Source of the DNA: Lachnospiraceae bacterium
GTDB taxonomy: Bacteria; Bacillota; Clostridia; Lachnospirales; Lachnospiraceae
Reading direction: 5' to 3'
NCBI GenBank assembly: GCA_029008875.1
Contig: JAQXJP010000012.1
Location: forward strand, 1-64,000
DNA: 64,000 nt
The notes under the pieces: model-generated
Databases searched by the model: none
What the model was told of the DNA's origin: nothing
Seen by the model: the letters and a program-made list of their open reading frames with translations, nothing else
Shown: in pieces, positions 40,404 to 44,849 of the stretch
Position numbering within the stretch: the stretch's first letter is position 1
How the letters are laid out: every line of letters begins with the position of its first letter
Program-made: the position numbers and the translations under genes

Positions 40404-42056
40404 TCAGAAGGAAGTATTGACGGAAAGTTTGGAATTATTCACTCGGATTTTTGCCACGTCAAATTCCAGGGTATGATTCACCTGCTCATCCATCAGCTTC
40501 CCCACAGTAAACCAGGTGATGTCCTCCTCCTTTGCCTTTTTCTCAATCATCTCCTCCATATAGGTTCCCATGTCCGTAGATAGGGATTCCCCCAGTTCCA
40601 ACACTTCCTCCACATCCTTGGCGACGCAGATGTAGGTGTTCCGCGGAAATTCCGATTCCTGCCTCAGATAATCCACCAGATCCCCCATGCTCTCGGTATC
40701 CTCCCAAAAAGCTTCGGACACCAAAACCACCTTGAGGTGATTAAAATCGGCGATTTTTTCCATCTCATCCTGACAGGCCATCATCGCCCCGCCGAAATCC
40801 GCTTTCCACACCATCCCCGTTTCCGGCTCGCCGGCCACCGAGGCAGCGTCCGGTTCACTGCGGAGAATGGGCATGACATAGGACACCCCCACATAGGTCT
40901 TCCCCGCAATGTCCCCCGGTTTTTCATCCACGGCCACAAGCAGCGGAAAGCTCCTGGCCTCCAGCTCGGTGGCGCCGCACCCCACTAGGCACAGCACCGG
41001 TATCAGAATCATGAGGGGGCCCACCGCATACCAGAAAAAGCCCTGTATTATCCTCTTAAATGTCTCCATATTCGCAATCAGCATAGCCGTTCCAAAGATA
41101 TTTGCCAGAAGAAATATGGTGGCCTCTAGGGCCAGTTTTTTCTCCCCAATCCGCAACCTGACGGGCAACTCTTTCAAACCGGCAAGCAGCATCTCCCTTC
41201 CCCAGAATAAATTCAAATTGAGCATGGCATATAATGTGAAAAACCAGATGGCCACCATAAAGGCATCCAGACGCTTCACAAACCCTCCGGTAAACTGGAT
41301 GTTTTCCAAGAGCACCACCGCAGGATAATCCATGGTTCCAAGCATCCTGCCGCCGAAGCTTCCCACCAGCACCAGATACAGGGCCAAAAGTATGCCAATC
41401 CCTGTGAGGATGGCCCAGAACACGCAGCCGCACATCCGTTTCCTGTGCATCACATGCCCCCGGAAAAAGGGCAGATACGCCACCGCCCCAAAGGTCAAAA
41501 AGGTCAAATATGCCCCCTGCAGCACTTTCCCCACGGAGGGTAATTCTGCAATCTCATAATACTGATACTGGATATCCCCCAGAGCCAAAAACATGGCTGC
41601 GAATAAACAAACTAACACCGGCCAAAACAGAATCTCGTAGGTTCTTGCCCTGCTCTCGATACTCCCCAGAACACTGTATCCGGAAGGAATCAGTAGCAAA
41701 AACAAAACCTGCCAGTATGCAGCCTCCTTGATGAGCATCTTGCACATCAGCTCCGCAAACAGGTATGCCACATACCCTGCGGTTGTGGTGGCAACCGTGC
41801 CGTAAACCACCCGGACCAGAATGGAAATCCATCTGCACCTGCAGCGGTTCCCCATGCTGTCCATGGCTTTTTTCATCAGCAGGTAGTATAGGAAAATCAG
41901 CACTGCCCCAAGCAGAATGGCGCACACTCCCACCGGCCCTGCCTCCCCCGCCACGAAGGATGGCACCAAGAGGGTGCTTACGCCGATGAGGTCAAACAAG
42001 AACAGGCGATAGGTTTGTCGATAGGATATGCGGTTATTGTCTACGATTTGGTTCAC
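40404..42056 (-). CDS. GerAB permease fused to the first domain of GerAC
   Basis: 550 residues. Residues of about 1-355 are a GerAB-type APC-superfamily permease with ten helices ('TLLVPSFVAGEAGPVGV' start, 'YPAVVLLENIQFTGGFVKRL' and 'DAFMVAIWFF' in helix 8). The last helix ends in 'LIPVLCLVGCGATELEARSF', which reads like a GerAC signal peptide and lipobox, and the following 190 residues match only the N-terminal domain of GerAC ('HLKVVLVSEAFWE'). The other two GerAC domains are missing. The start is GTG, 23 bases inside gerAA, with GGAGGAAG upstream. It forms a germinant receptor with GerAA. Confidence 0.85.
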   Translation of the reverse strand: MNQIVDNNRISYRQTYRLFLFDLIGVSTLLVPSFVAGEAGPVGVCAILLGAVLIFLYYLLMKKAMDSMGNRCRCRWISILVRVVYGTVATTTAGYVAYLFAELMCKMLIKEAAYWQVLFLLLIPSGYSVLGSIESRARTYEILFWPVLVCLFAAMFLALGDIQYQYYEIAELPSVGKVLQGAYLTFLTFGAVAYLPFFRGHVMHRKRMCGCVFWAILTGIGILLALYLVLVGSFGGRMLGTMDYPAVVLLENIQFTGGFVKRLDAFMVAIWFFTLYAMLNLNLFWGREMLLAGLKELPVRLRIGEKKLALEATIFLLANIFGTAMLIANMETFKRIIQGFFWYAVGPLMILIPVLCLVGCGATELEARSFPLLVAVDEKPGDIAGKTYVGVSYVMPILRSEPDAASVAGEPETGMVWKADFGGAMMACQDEMEKIADFNHLKVVLVSEAFWEDTESMGDLVDYLRQESEFPRNTYICVAKDVEEVLELGESLSTDMGTYMEEMIEKKAKEEDITWFTVGKLMDEQVNHTLEFDVAKIRVNNSKLSVNTSF

Positions 42057-43563
42057 TTTTTTCTTCTTCCTCCCCGGAAAATCTCAATTTGCGGCGCTGG
42101 TCCCTCCTTGCATTGAAGGTTCTCCATTTCAGTTTCCGGATGGGGAACCGCACCATGGCATCCCGTAAATCCCGATAATGATTCAGCTCCGCTCCCACGA
42201 AGGGCATCAGGTAGGCCATACCGAAGCTCTCCAGCCTCGTAAGGTGGATGAGCACCACAATCAGCCCAATCAAAAAGCCATAGAATCCCATCCACGCCGC
42301 CATCAGGATGAAAAAGAATTTCAGAATGCGGAAAGAAAAGGCAAATTCCTCATTGGGGATAGCGAAGGAACAGAGCGCGGTAAACGCCACCAGTATGACC
42401 ACCATGGGGCTTACGATGTTGGCATCCACCGCCGCCTGACCGATAATCAGGCCCCCCACAATCCCGATGGTATTGCCCATAGCCCCAGGGAGACGTACCC
42501 CCGCCTCCCGGAGCAATTCAAAGGAAATCTCCATCAGAAGGACCTCCAGTGCCGCCGGAAAGGGAACCCCGATGCGAGCCTCCTGAAAGGATAAAAGCAG
42601 TGTGGTTGGCAATATCTGTGTATGGTAATTGGTCACCGCCAGGTATAATCCCGGCAACGTCATAGAGAAAAATACCGCGATATAACGCAGCATTCTCGCG
42701 AAGGTCACCGTCTCCATCCGGTTGTAATAATCATCCGCAGTGCGCAAAAAGGAATTGAAATCCGCCGGGCAGATCAGTGCAACCGGCGAATTGTCACACA
42801 GGATTACCACCCGCCCCTCCAGAAGGGACATGACAGCCCTGTCCGGCCTCTGGGTGGTCTGATACTGGGGAAAGGGAGAGTACCATTTTTTCTCCATCAG
42901 CTGCTCGATGACGCCGCTGTCCAGCACCCCATCAATGGTAAAATCCTCCAGCTTTTTTTCGATTTTTCCCACAATATCCGGCCTGACAATCCCATCCATG
43001 TACATGATATTGATCAGCGACCGGGTTCTGGTTCCCGTCTTAATCTCCTTGTTTTTCAATCGTGTTGAGCGCAGCCGCTTGCGGATTAGTGCGGTGTTGG
43101 TCTTGACTGAGTCGGAAAATCCCTCATTGGAGCCCCGCACTACCTTTTCGGATTCGGCCTCCTCCACGCCCATTCCCGGATATCCCTTATCCGCTATTTT
43201 CAGCGCCTTTTCGTATCCCTCCACCAGAAGTATCGCATCCCCGGTGAGCATGGCTTCCGCCGCTTCCTCCAAAAATGCATAATATCCGATGTCTGCAATC
43301 CCCATGGCATTGTTGTCCAGCATCCGATTCCGCTCTGTCACGGATTGATCCGCCCAACTCCCCAGCTGTTTGAACATCTGCCCCAGGGCGGTATCCCTCA
43401 CCATAGTGTTGTTCAGAGACACCTCAATGTATGCCACAAAGCATGTGCATTTTCCCATGAGGCCCTGCAGCTCCATGCGTTGCATCTTCACATCCGCGCA
43501 ATCCCCGTACACCTGCCTGAAAAACGCAATATTCTCATTAATCTGCTGCGAAACTCCTGTCAT
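42034..43563 (-). CDS. gerAA: Spore germination receptor subunit GerAA
   Basis: 509 residues. A soluble N-terminal half of two subdomains ('VAYIEVSLNNTMVRDTALGQ', 'VVRGSNEGFSDSVKTNTALI', 'RKRLRSTRLKNKEIKTGTRT') is followed by a membrane half of about 290-470 with 'RIGVPFPAALEVLLMEISFE' and 'LPGAMGNTIGIVGGLIIGQA'. GerA-type receptors sit in the spore inner membrane and open an ion path when they bind germinants; the ligand is not readable. AAGGAGGAAGT precedes ATG 43563. It is the first gene of the gerAA-gerAB/AC operon, directly downstream of a large palindromic element. Confidence 0.97.
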   Translation of the reverse strand: MTGVSQQINENIAFFRQVYGDCADVKMQRMELQGLMGKCTCFVAYIEVSLNNTMVRDTALGQMFKQLGSWADQSVTERNRMLDNNAMGIADIGYYAFLEEAAEAMLTGDAILLVEGYEKALKIADKGYPGMGVEEAESEKVVRGSNEGFSDSVKTNTALIRKRLRSTRLKNKEIKTGTRTRSLINIMYMDGIVRPDIVGKIEKKLEDFTIDGVLDSGVIEQLMEKKWYSPFPQYQTTQRPDRAVMSLLEGRVVILCDNSPVALICPADFNSFLRTADDYYNRMETVTFARMLRYIAVFFSMTLPGLYLAVTNYHTQILPTTLLLSFQEARIGVPFPAALEVLLMEISFELLREAGVRLPGAMGNTIGIVGGLIIGQAAVDANIVSPMVVILVAFTALCSFAIPNEEFAFSFRILKFFFILMAAWMGFYGFLIGLIVVLIHLTRLESFGMAYLMPFVGAELNHYRDLRDAMVRFPIRKLKWRTFNARRDQRRKLRFSGEEEEKSEPNRRQ

Positions 43564-43589
43564 ACTTCCTCCTTCATGGACCTGTCCTC

Positions 43590-44108
43590 ATTTTTCCTGT
43601 GCCCCAGCCTCCGGGGTTCCGCTTCCCCCCTGCACGCACGCCCCGCCTGTCGCCCCCTCCTCTGCAGCCTTTTTGAACATCTTGTTTTCTGACAGCTTGT
43701 CGGCACTTCTTTCTATACTTACCGTTCGCCAAGATGTGGACACCCGGGGGCTGCCTGTTCGGCTATGACGGAGTATTTCTGCAGAATGCTTAGTGACTCT
43801 TGACGTGCCCGGACACTGATACCACCGCGGCGAGAACCTGTTTGACCGAAGGGAGTTCCACAGCCGCGGTTATTTCCATAAAAGAAGTGGACGGGCACGT
43901 CTTAGAGTCAGTTAGTGTTCGAAGCCTTACTCCGCCATAGTCGGACAGGAAGCCCCCGGGTGTTCACAGGTTGTCGTACGGCAAGGAGAAGCGCCGACTT
44001 CGCCTAGAAAACTACGATGTTCAAAGCGCTCTCAGAGGAGGGGGCGGCAGGCAGGGCGGGCACGCTGGGGGAAGCGGAACCCCGGGGACGGACGCGGGCA
44101 AAAAAATA
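43590..44108. repeat. About 520-bp imperfect palindrome (foldback element) upstream of gerAA
   Basis: The stretch folds back on itself over almost its whole length. The left arm is about 43590-43831 and the right arm about 43863-44108, with a loop of about 31 bases closed by CCGCGGC/GCCGCGG. Perfectly complementary blocks include CCGGGGTTCCGCTTCCCCC (43611-43629 with its partner near 44069-44087), CGCCCCCTCCTCTG, ACACCCGGGGGCT and GACGTGCCCG. Overall match is roughly three quarters by eye, with an offset or two. Mismatches do not favour G-U pairs on one strand. No gene of normal length is supported inside; it fills the 596-base gap between gntR and gerAA and is more GC-rich than its surroundings. 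Confidence 0.85.
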
Positions 44109-44131
44109 GAGACAGGTCCTTGCCTGTCTCT
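44100..44131 (-). terminator. Rho-independent terminator of gntR
   Basis: AGAGACAGG-CAAGGA-CCTGTCTCT followed by a T-run on the minus strand, 28 bases after the gntR stop. It abuts, and slightly overlaps, the outer end of the palindromic element. Confidence 0.9.
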
Positions 44132-44159
44132 AGTATGTGCATTGTTTCGCAACATATTC

Positions 44160-44849
44160 TTAATTGTGTTTTTCTTCGTCCTGGTTCTGGATGACGGCCT
44201 TCACTGCCACCGCCTGATTCTCCACATGCTCGTGCATAGCGTGGGTGGCGCGCTCCTTATCCCGGGCCATCAGCCCCTCCCAGATTTTCTCGTGCTCCCG
44301 GATGAGGATTGGATAATTCTCCGGATTCTTTACATACTCCACCCGGTAGCGGTAGACCTGCTCGCGGAGATTGCTTAAGATGCTGACCAGCTTGGGGTTG
44401 TCTGCGGCCTCGTAGATGACATCATGGAAGTTCACATCCGCCTCCGCGATTTTCTTCACATCCTTGCCTTTGGTGCACAGCTCAAACTCATCTTTCACTC
44501 TGCGGAGTTTTTCCAACTGCTCGTCGGTGATCTTCTCGCAGGCGATTTGAACTGCAAGTTCATCCAAAGCCTCCCGAACCTCCAGGACATCCTCCATATC
44601 CTTCAATGTCATCTTGGCAACCTCGGCACCCTTGCGGGGGATCGTCACTGCCAGCCCCTCCTGTTCCAGCATGCGGATTGCCTCCCGGATGGGGGTTCTG
44701 CTGACGCCCAGCTTCGAAGCCAGCTGCAGCTCCATCAGCCGCTCCCCGGGCTTTAAATCGCCCCTTAGAATTGCCTCCCGCAATGTCTTGAACACAACAT
44801 CGCGAAGGGGTAGATATTCATTCATGTCCAATTTCAGATTATCTGTCAT
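44160..44849 (-). CDS. GntR-family regulator, FadR (FCD) subfamily
   Basis: 229 residues. The winged helix is at about 12-75 ('VFKTLREAILRGDLKPGERL', 'LGVSRTPIREAIRMLEQEGL'). The C-terminal FCD ligand domain spans about 85-220, with 'EADVNFHDVIYEAADNPKL' and 'EHEKIWEGLMARDKERATHA', keeping the Asp/His residues that bind metal and a carboxylate ligand. It lies 22 bases after ispE in one operon. Two TTGTATACAA-type sites at the ispE promoter match FadR-subfamily operators (TNGT..ACNA), so autoregulation is likely. The ligand is unknown. Confidence 0.93.
   Translation of the reverse strand: MTDNLKLDMNEYLPLRDVVFKTLREAILRGDLKPGERLMELQLASKLGVSRTPIREAIRMLEQEGLAVTIPRKGAEVAKMTLKDMEDVLEVREALDELAVQIACEKITDEQLEKLRRVKDEFELCTKGKDVKKIAEADVNFHDVIYEAADNPKLVSILSNLREQVYRYRVEYVKNPENYPILIREHEKIWEGLMARDKERATHAMHEHVENQAVAVKAVIQNQDEEKHN

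Follow-up and report, generated by a model that had tools for sequence, protein, structure and literature searches.

Structure and Setting of the Palindrome

The 64,000-nt stretch of Lachnospiraceae DNA analysed here (the window) raises the question of what an imperfect palindrome of about 520 bp is doing in the gap between a gene for a GntR-type regulator and the germination gene gerAA, and whether it serves the genes that it adjoins. The palindrome had been placed at 43590-44108 in an earlier note, and both a direct arm search and folding bear this out: the segment 43560-44140 is predicted to form a single hairpin of -355 kcal/mol, compared with -211 ± 6 kcal/mol for 100 shuffled sequences (z -22), none of which equalled it. 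Paired arms span 43575-44122 in the arm search, and of the perfect blocks of up to 19 bp described previously one of 19 nt was recovered, 43611-43629 pairing with 44067-44085. The left outer arm (43611-43688, + strand, 78 nt) is C-rich and 72% complementary to a G-rich right outer arm (44009-44086), the left inner arm (43718-43775, 58 nt) is 83% complementary to its partner at 43928-43985, and an extra 21-nt arm pair (43575-43595 with 44102-44122, 81%) lies just beyond the limits of the palindrome. The apex is formed by a 41-nt block (43827-43867, + strand), which includes the tip motif TGTTTGA-CC-GAA-GG-GAGTT (43839-43857, + strand). Rfam gave no match at its gathering scores in the window and none at E≤5 over 43500-44200, and no sigma-70-type promoter was found around the palindrome.

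On one side, at a distance of 26 bp, lies gerAA (42034-43563, - strand; GerA family, Pfam PF03323), and on the other gntR (44160-44849, - strand), whose product combines the GntR (PF00392) and FCD (PF07729) domains. A terminator-like hairpin with a T run (44100-44132, - strand; a 10-pair stem and then seven T, reading from 44132) adjoins the element between gntR and the palindrome. Because this site separates the two, read-through from gntR across the palindrome is probably restricted, which qualifies the earlier statement that any gerAA transcript read from gntR must cross it.

The GntR protein was matched in 61 of 62 genomes of the genus, and the loci around the 11 best congener matches (L173-L183) were compared with the window. 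Downstream of gntR, gerAA was present in 10 of the 11, and in L180 there was no gerAA match within 1.4 kb up to the contig end. The giant-hairpin element was absent from all 10 congener gntR-gerAA gaps examined (approximately 70-330 nt), eight of which contain, on inspection, a hairpin followed by T; the closest congener, G016, has by the same inspection the same type of terminator behind gntR. Another palindrome, near-perfect and about 200 nt long, occupies that post-terminator spot in G016 (L173, approximately 2250-2460), and part of its repeat also adjoins the element in L185. Since the congener gaps are without the element and G016 has another palindrome there, the gap looks like a landing place and not like a conserved germination control element. 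Conservation of the position next to gerA was looked for and was not seen in these 10 gaps, which, together with the intervening terminator and the presence of other copies elsewhere, speaks against the earlier suggestion of a 5' leader for the germination genes. The insertion may have displaced the gerAA promoter, as 26 bp are left between palindrome and gene.

Copies within the Genome

With the element as query, the window's own genome (2.63 Mb in 43 contigs, 93% complete) returned 26 matches, which became 22 loci after pieces were merged and reverse matches set aside, a count in which six loci at or near contig ends are possibly halves of the same copies. A covariance model search added a weaker further copy at C35:110708. 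The check on copy number proposed earlier thus reveals a dispersed element: a non-coding giant-hairpin repeat with about twenty copies scattered over the genome, of which the palindrome (copy C12) is one, and whose palindromes span about 450-900 bp. The region common to most long matches corresponds to query positions 109-475, or roughly 43678-44028 of the window, with 77-86% identity; this core and the tip are common to all copies, and the outer arms are common only within subfamilies, the left outer arm of the window copy being mostly without any other match in its own genome at E≤0.001. With three mismatches allowed, the 41-nt tip block was found 17 times in the genome, 15 times exactly and twice with one mismatch (as in the window copy), and in none of 61 congeners. 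As many copies differ in flanks, internal loops and arm mismatches, an assembly artefact is a very unlikely source of the palindrome.

By blastn against 60 genomes including its own (best 10 candidates per genome), the element was found in its own genome only; the one congener match, 40 nt at query 539-578, is the gntR terminator region, and a distant blastn of phage and plasmid collections with the whole element gave no match. By a crude open-frame call the long genes of its own genome were free of copies, and the genes beside the copies look unrelated from their starts. Orientation looked mostly codirectional with the upstream gene, in small numbers and with crude gene calls. Copies favour sites behind terminators: a terminator points at the element end in 9 of 16 usable copies (six of the 22 loci were left out) versus 105 of 1260 random windows, a contrast inflated by the coding DNA that the random windows include. 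The earlier option of a foldback or MITE-type element stands insofar as the repeat is multicopy, non-coding, built of inverted-repeat arms, scattered over 22 loci and absent from the orthologous site in relatives (the 10 congener gaps). Visual inspection of C12 and of the G310 copies showed no target-site duplication, and changes on both sides of the stem keep pairing.

Pairing, Strand and Outer Arms

Alignment of 18 core copies (alignment A2; four partial loci were left out) yielded a predicted consensus of 111 pairs, 40 of which change on both sides with pairing kept. Pairing was observed in 97.5% of alignment cells versus 90.2% in shuffles, and both-sided change in 149 cells versus 46, values that none of 500 shuffles reached, where the cells count related sequences and not events. 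With the partners slid by 1-3 columns, 40-48% of cells paired in place of 97.5%. Among the five shuffle measures, that of further pair types was not unusual (49/500). Between the variable helices lie near-invariant mismatched blocks, such as GGAGTATTTCTGCAGAATACTTA opposite TTAGTGTTCGAAGCCTTACTCC. Both-sided change of this kind is not expected of an ordinary decaying MITE.

The earlier note had seen no preference for G-U pairs on one strand of the window copy. Over the 18 copies a preference does emerge, as variable pairs of the + strand hold 96 G.U against 20 A.C cells (21 and 13 sites), although the structure behind these counts came from the alignment itself, by way of a program that allows G.U but no A.C pairs and so favours the former. 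The bias is smaller in an arm alignment of 19 copies that does not depend on a fold, which gave 110 G.U to 54 A.C for the core and, for the outer arms, 61 to 44. Because G.U exceeds A.C on this strand, it is probably the + strand of the window that acts in folded form, as judged from these predicted pairings; such a bias fits RNA and, more weakly, single-stranded DNA.

The outer arms vary in sequence from one subfamily to another, yet those of any one copy pair with each other. Of 1771 pairs aligned up to 110 nt beyond the core, 1518 are Watson-Crick (19 loci, with three cut loci left out). Nine of the 19 loci have a left outer arm with 46-54% C, and such a C-rich arm would stay unfolded until its partner appears. 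Three copies bear signs of rewritten arms. C12 repeats one half of the gntR terminator, with its T tract, in inverted form on the gerAA side (43575-43595, + strand): 17 of 21 positions match, and none of 5000 mononucleotide shuffles did as well. In C24 the terminator loops were seen on inspection to be in inverse orientation on the two sides. Inspection of C35a (L021) revealed an apical part inverted relative to the outer arms, the arms having seemingly been exchanged. Over 16 copies, inverted similarity between flanks averaged 9.2 against 7.0 (permutation p 0.003), a difference driven by few copies and measured with some strict ends drawn short, so that only the C12 case is used here as evidence.

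The Tip in Other Genomes

The tip consists of TGTYTGA, a mini-stem of 2 bp closing a GAA loop, and GAGTT, and the hairpins that it caps in Lachnospirales, Bacteroidota, Variovorax and a Kaiserbacterium are otherwise different. In the window copy both NN positions are paired and the motif is central in the long palindrome. A covariance model (R1) built from 10 copies of the window's genome found members in at least 3 of 62 genomes of the genus (best 45 candidates per genome) and at least 5 of 392 genomes of the order (best 7 candidates per genome), its own included in both. The new elements, in G016 (E 1.6e-21), G073, G394 (two), G447 (two), G248 and G090, number eight, and on inspection each has either the tip itself or a form close to it: GCGAAGC with AAGTT in L185, GCGAAGC in L204, L205 and L208, CTGAAAG in L207, and the triloops GCA in L206 and GTA in L209. 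The model matched four of the eight on the strand that lacks the motif, as can happen when a model is palindromic. In L186 (G073) a longer hairpin replaces the mini-stem with TGTTTGA...GAGTTCCGCAG kept, which suggests that the tip is an internal-loop motif rather than a loop. A T-box leader (RF00230) lies close behind the G248 element (L206, 1821-2050); among 20 loci with relatives or motif matches, Rfam at gathering scores gave nothing else.

In a collection of species genomes the strict 22-nt tip occurs at four places in three genomes, none of them near the window's genome (two in a Bacteroidetes MAG, one in Sphingobacterium phlebotomi and one in a Kaiserbacteria MAG), and in all four it caps a hairpin with a different stem. 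The Kaiserbacteria copy (L051, 2139-2160, - strand) apparently sits in frame inside a recG-like reading frame, judging from the translation. Among six plasmid loci examined, with 19 other plasmid records left out, the motif caps hairpins in Variovorax, Butyrivibrio (L211, on plasmid pNP243 of B. fibrisolvens D1), Parabacteroides (two) and Aureibacter. No claim is made for the Fusobacteriota by way of Ilyobacter (L213), the motif being present there with no convincing flanking palindrome.

The pattern TGTYTGANNGAANNGAGTT was found in 45 of 392 genomes of the order, with 215 matches versus 3 for the reversed-pattern control (75 in G310, 27 in G090 and 18 in the window's genome), and in 22 of 201 genomes of the order of S. 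phlebotomi, with 77 matches versus 5; some of these tip matches are chance matches in genes. A flanking palindrome above the control level (300 random positions, 95% level 13.5, maximum 38.8) accompanies 33 of 47 instances in which both NN pairs are complementary, 4 of 5 with one pair (two of them with an N base) and none of 17 unpaired instances, a few overlapping loci being counted twice; 14 of the 47 paired instances are without such a palindrome. Once identical contexts were removed, 85 of 105 tip instances, copies of the window's genome included, were fully paired, 3 had one pair and 17 had none. Six Watson-Crick combinations are represented (GC/GC 39, CC/GG 22, AC/GT 13, GT/AC 7, CT/AG 2 and GG/CC 2), and the tip is subject to base-pair covariation across phyla. 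Its sharing may reflect descent or convergence on one binding partner; beyond the closest relatives little but the tip could be aligned.

Ten copies inspected in G310 (L277-L286) are palindromes of about 220-345 bp, four with the left end ACTTCGCACTTG and others with near variants. Behind the big hairpin of L212, L214, L215, L052, L082 and L210 (Bacteroidota, Variovorax and viral contigs) stands a second, T-rich hairpin, which in several of these loci is of the type CTTTTGGTTACTTTT...AAAAGTAAC. Complementary NN occur in two (L078 and L082) of 29 viral-contig loci with CTGTTTGANNGAANNGAGTT, and these same two have the best flanking stems. The 32-nt tip, used as a query against phages, yielded short matches only. 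Many viral contigs (L104-L162) contain a repeated AT-rich sequence with TTTGAGCGAAGCGAGTT; the 62 viral-contig loci with TTTGAGCGAAGCGAGTT are mostly this one sequence and were not used as support.

Relation to a Y1 Transposase

A Y1_Tnp gene at C10:62347 of the window's genome (Pfam E 1.1e-15) is flanked by GGGACGTTCC ends, and 9 of the 22 loci share these ends, six of them at both ends (C10b, C10c, C10d, C15, C19a and C19b) and three at the one visible end (C13a, C36 and C39). Furthermore, the end of the Y1 gene locus (L165) is identical over 42 nt to copy C10c. The window copy and the other 12 loci have no GGGACGTTCC ends in the available sequence, some being cut at contig ends. The genome has two Y1 genes, the second of which (L167, G000:C38:88354) has tandem GGGGACGTATCTTTTTCGC-type repeats to its left and right, inversely oriented.

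Elsewhere, Y1_Tnp was found in 9 of 17 motif-rich genomes (at least 4 matches) versus 11 of 19 motif-free genomes, all hand-picked from the tip-pattern results; in G310, G090 and G099 the ends of six Y1 loci do not recur in the palindrome loci examined (10, 7 and 2, respectively), and G086 has six Y1 matches while none was found in G087 and G088. Because Y1 genes do not track the motif in these genomes and no shared ends are seen in the loci compared, the Y1 transposase explains one subset of the copies only, and it is not supported as a general mover.

Discussion

On balance, we regard it as probable, with more confidence than doubt, that the palindrome beside gerAA is a copy of a dispersed, non-coding and non-autonomous structured foldback repeat whose tip is recognised in trans. 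Such a repeat would have multiplied in the window's genome and entered the gap behind the gntR terminator. The element would work as one folded strand (the + strand of the window), either RNA or single-stranded DNA, with a trans-acting factor recognising the tip together with the inner internal loops, and copies would spread by way of the folded strand with a preference for landing behind intrinsic terminators. The stems would be free in sequence provided that they remain paired, resulting in quick drift, and the outermost arms may be lengthened or replaced through copy-back of neighbouring DNA. The Y1 (TIRYT-like) transposase probably captured one subset of the copies by lending them its own terminal repeats.

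Among the alternatives, the copies could be host-useful non-coding RNA genes or 3'-UTR elements (in attenuation, as RNase III substrates or as a protein sponge) that were multiplied by duplication and are not selfish. Strong covariation with near-invariant internal loops, the G.U bias on one strand and the lack of copies in long genes, as far as a crude open-frame call can tell, are all consistent with such a role. The element is nonetheless missing from the 10 congener gaps, the model finds it in at least 3 of 62 genomes of the genus (its own included), the motif is uneven within the order (45 of 392 genomes), the neighbouring genes look unrelated and no sigma-70-type promoter was found around the window copy, and we consider this explanation unlikely.

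Less likely still is a MITE- or REPIN-like reading, in which the element would simply be a dimer of terminal inverted repeats and the Y1 (TIRYT-like) transposase at G000:C10 its mover. The nine loci with the GGGACGTTCC ends of the transposase locus would be accounted for, and for Y1 genes flanked by TIRs (TIRYT) the literature describes dispersed TIR families, dimers included (PMC3733652). What all copies have in common, however, is the core and tip and not the ends, which the window copy and 12 other loci do without (some of them cut at contig ends), and Y1 genes fail to track the motif in other genomes, G087 and G088 among them.

Template switching, in which the arms are rewritten from each other or from flanking DNA and pairing is kept without selection, could in principle produce outer arms that differ between subfamilies and pair within each copy, as well as the inverted half-terminator of C12, the inverse terminator loops of C24 and the inverted apical part of C35a. 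Rewriting would also erase mismatches, yet the mismatched internal-loop blocks are near-invariant in 18 copies, and one strand favours G.U over A.C; as a full account of the element we find this by-product reading improbable. The earlier note's option of a DNA hairpin that serves a nuclease or a replication factor may also hold, as the data do not separate RNA from single-stranded DNA. A structured 5' leader or riboswitch for gerAA, to which only the place 26 bp ahead of the gene would point, is scarcely credible and was rejected on account of the 22 loci in the genome and the 10 congener gaps empty of the element, with no Rfam match and a gntR terminator ahead of the palindrome.

The foldback repeat that we favour shares features with several known systems. 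Bacterial MITEs and foldback elements are likewise non-coding, located between genes and devoid of a transposase of their own, and differ from the present element, in which no target-site duplication was seen and both-sided change keeps pairing. Rickettsia palindromic elements are palindromic repeats able to sit in frame inside genes, and the apparent in-frame position of the L051 copy is reminiscent of them. Group IIC introns prefer sites behind intrinsic terminators; this element may resemble them in its preferred sites, and differs in being one long hairpin with no Rfam match at the window. The element is multicopy, hairpin-forming and intergenic in the manner of REP, BIME and REPIN sequences. 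Unlike REPs, which are 20-40 bp with GTAG or CGTC tags (PMC3733652), it measures about 520 bp, and its arms vary freely around a conserved tip. The TIRYT/TIRtron group (PMC3733652), linked to TnpAREP subclass 2.1 in another report (PMC6006769), is similar in having dispersed inverted-repeat families near Y1 transposases and GGGG-type ends, which are present on nine copies here and read GGGGACGT, one letter off the reported GGGGWSAS; it differs from the palindromes of about 450-900 bp described here, with their conserved internal loops and tip, and from the window copy, which is without such ends. The earlier remark that no named family has this form holds as far as tested, since the window matched no Rfam 15 family and a literature search with the motif strings returned no relevant paper, a search that would miss sequences given only in figures or otherwise spelled. 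Dispersed palindromes as such are a known kind; it is the giant hairpin with free paired stems and a multi-phylum tip that matched no Rfam 15 family at the window.

A broader proposal, which we put forward tentatively and would not call likely, is that these hairpins form a class of mobile structured nucleic acids, spanning phyla and not described before, in which a tip of about 19 nt is the sole universal part and is recognised by a factor, itself conserved or mobile, and in which the stems are renewed under a constraint of pairing only. If such a tip class is real, one machinery could carry endlessly different long double-stranded arms. A striking palindrome beside a gene, as the gntR-gerAA gap illustrates, need not regulate that gene. 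If our reading is right, many bacteria would harbour a hidden class of giant hairpins, with up to 75 tip-motif matches in a single genome (G310), that form long double-stranded RNA or single-stranded DNA structures whose pairing is under selection, and the tip could be used to fish out the factor that binds it.
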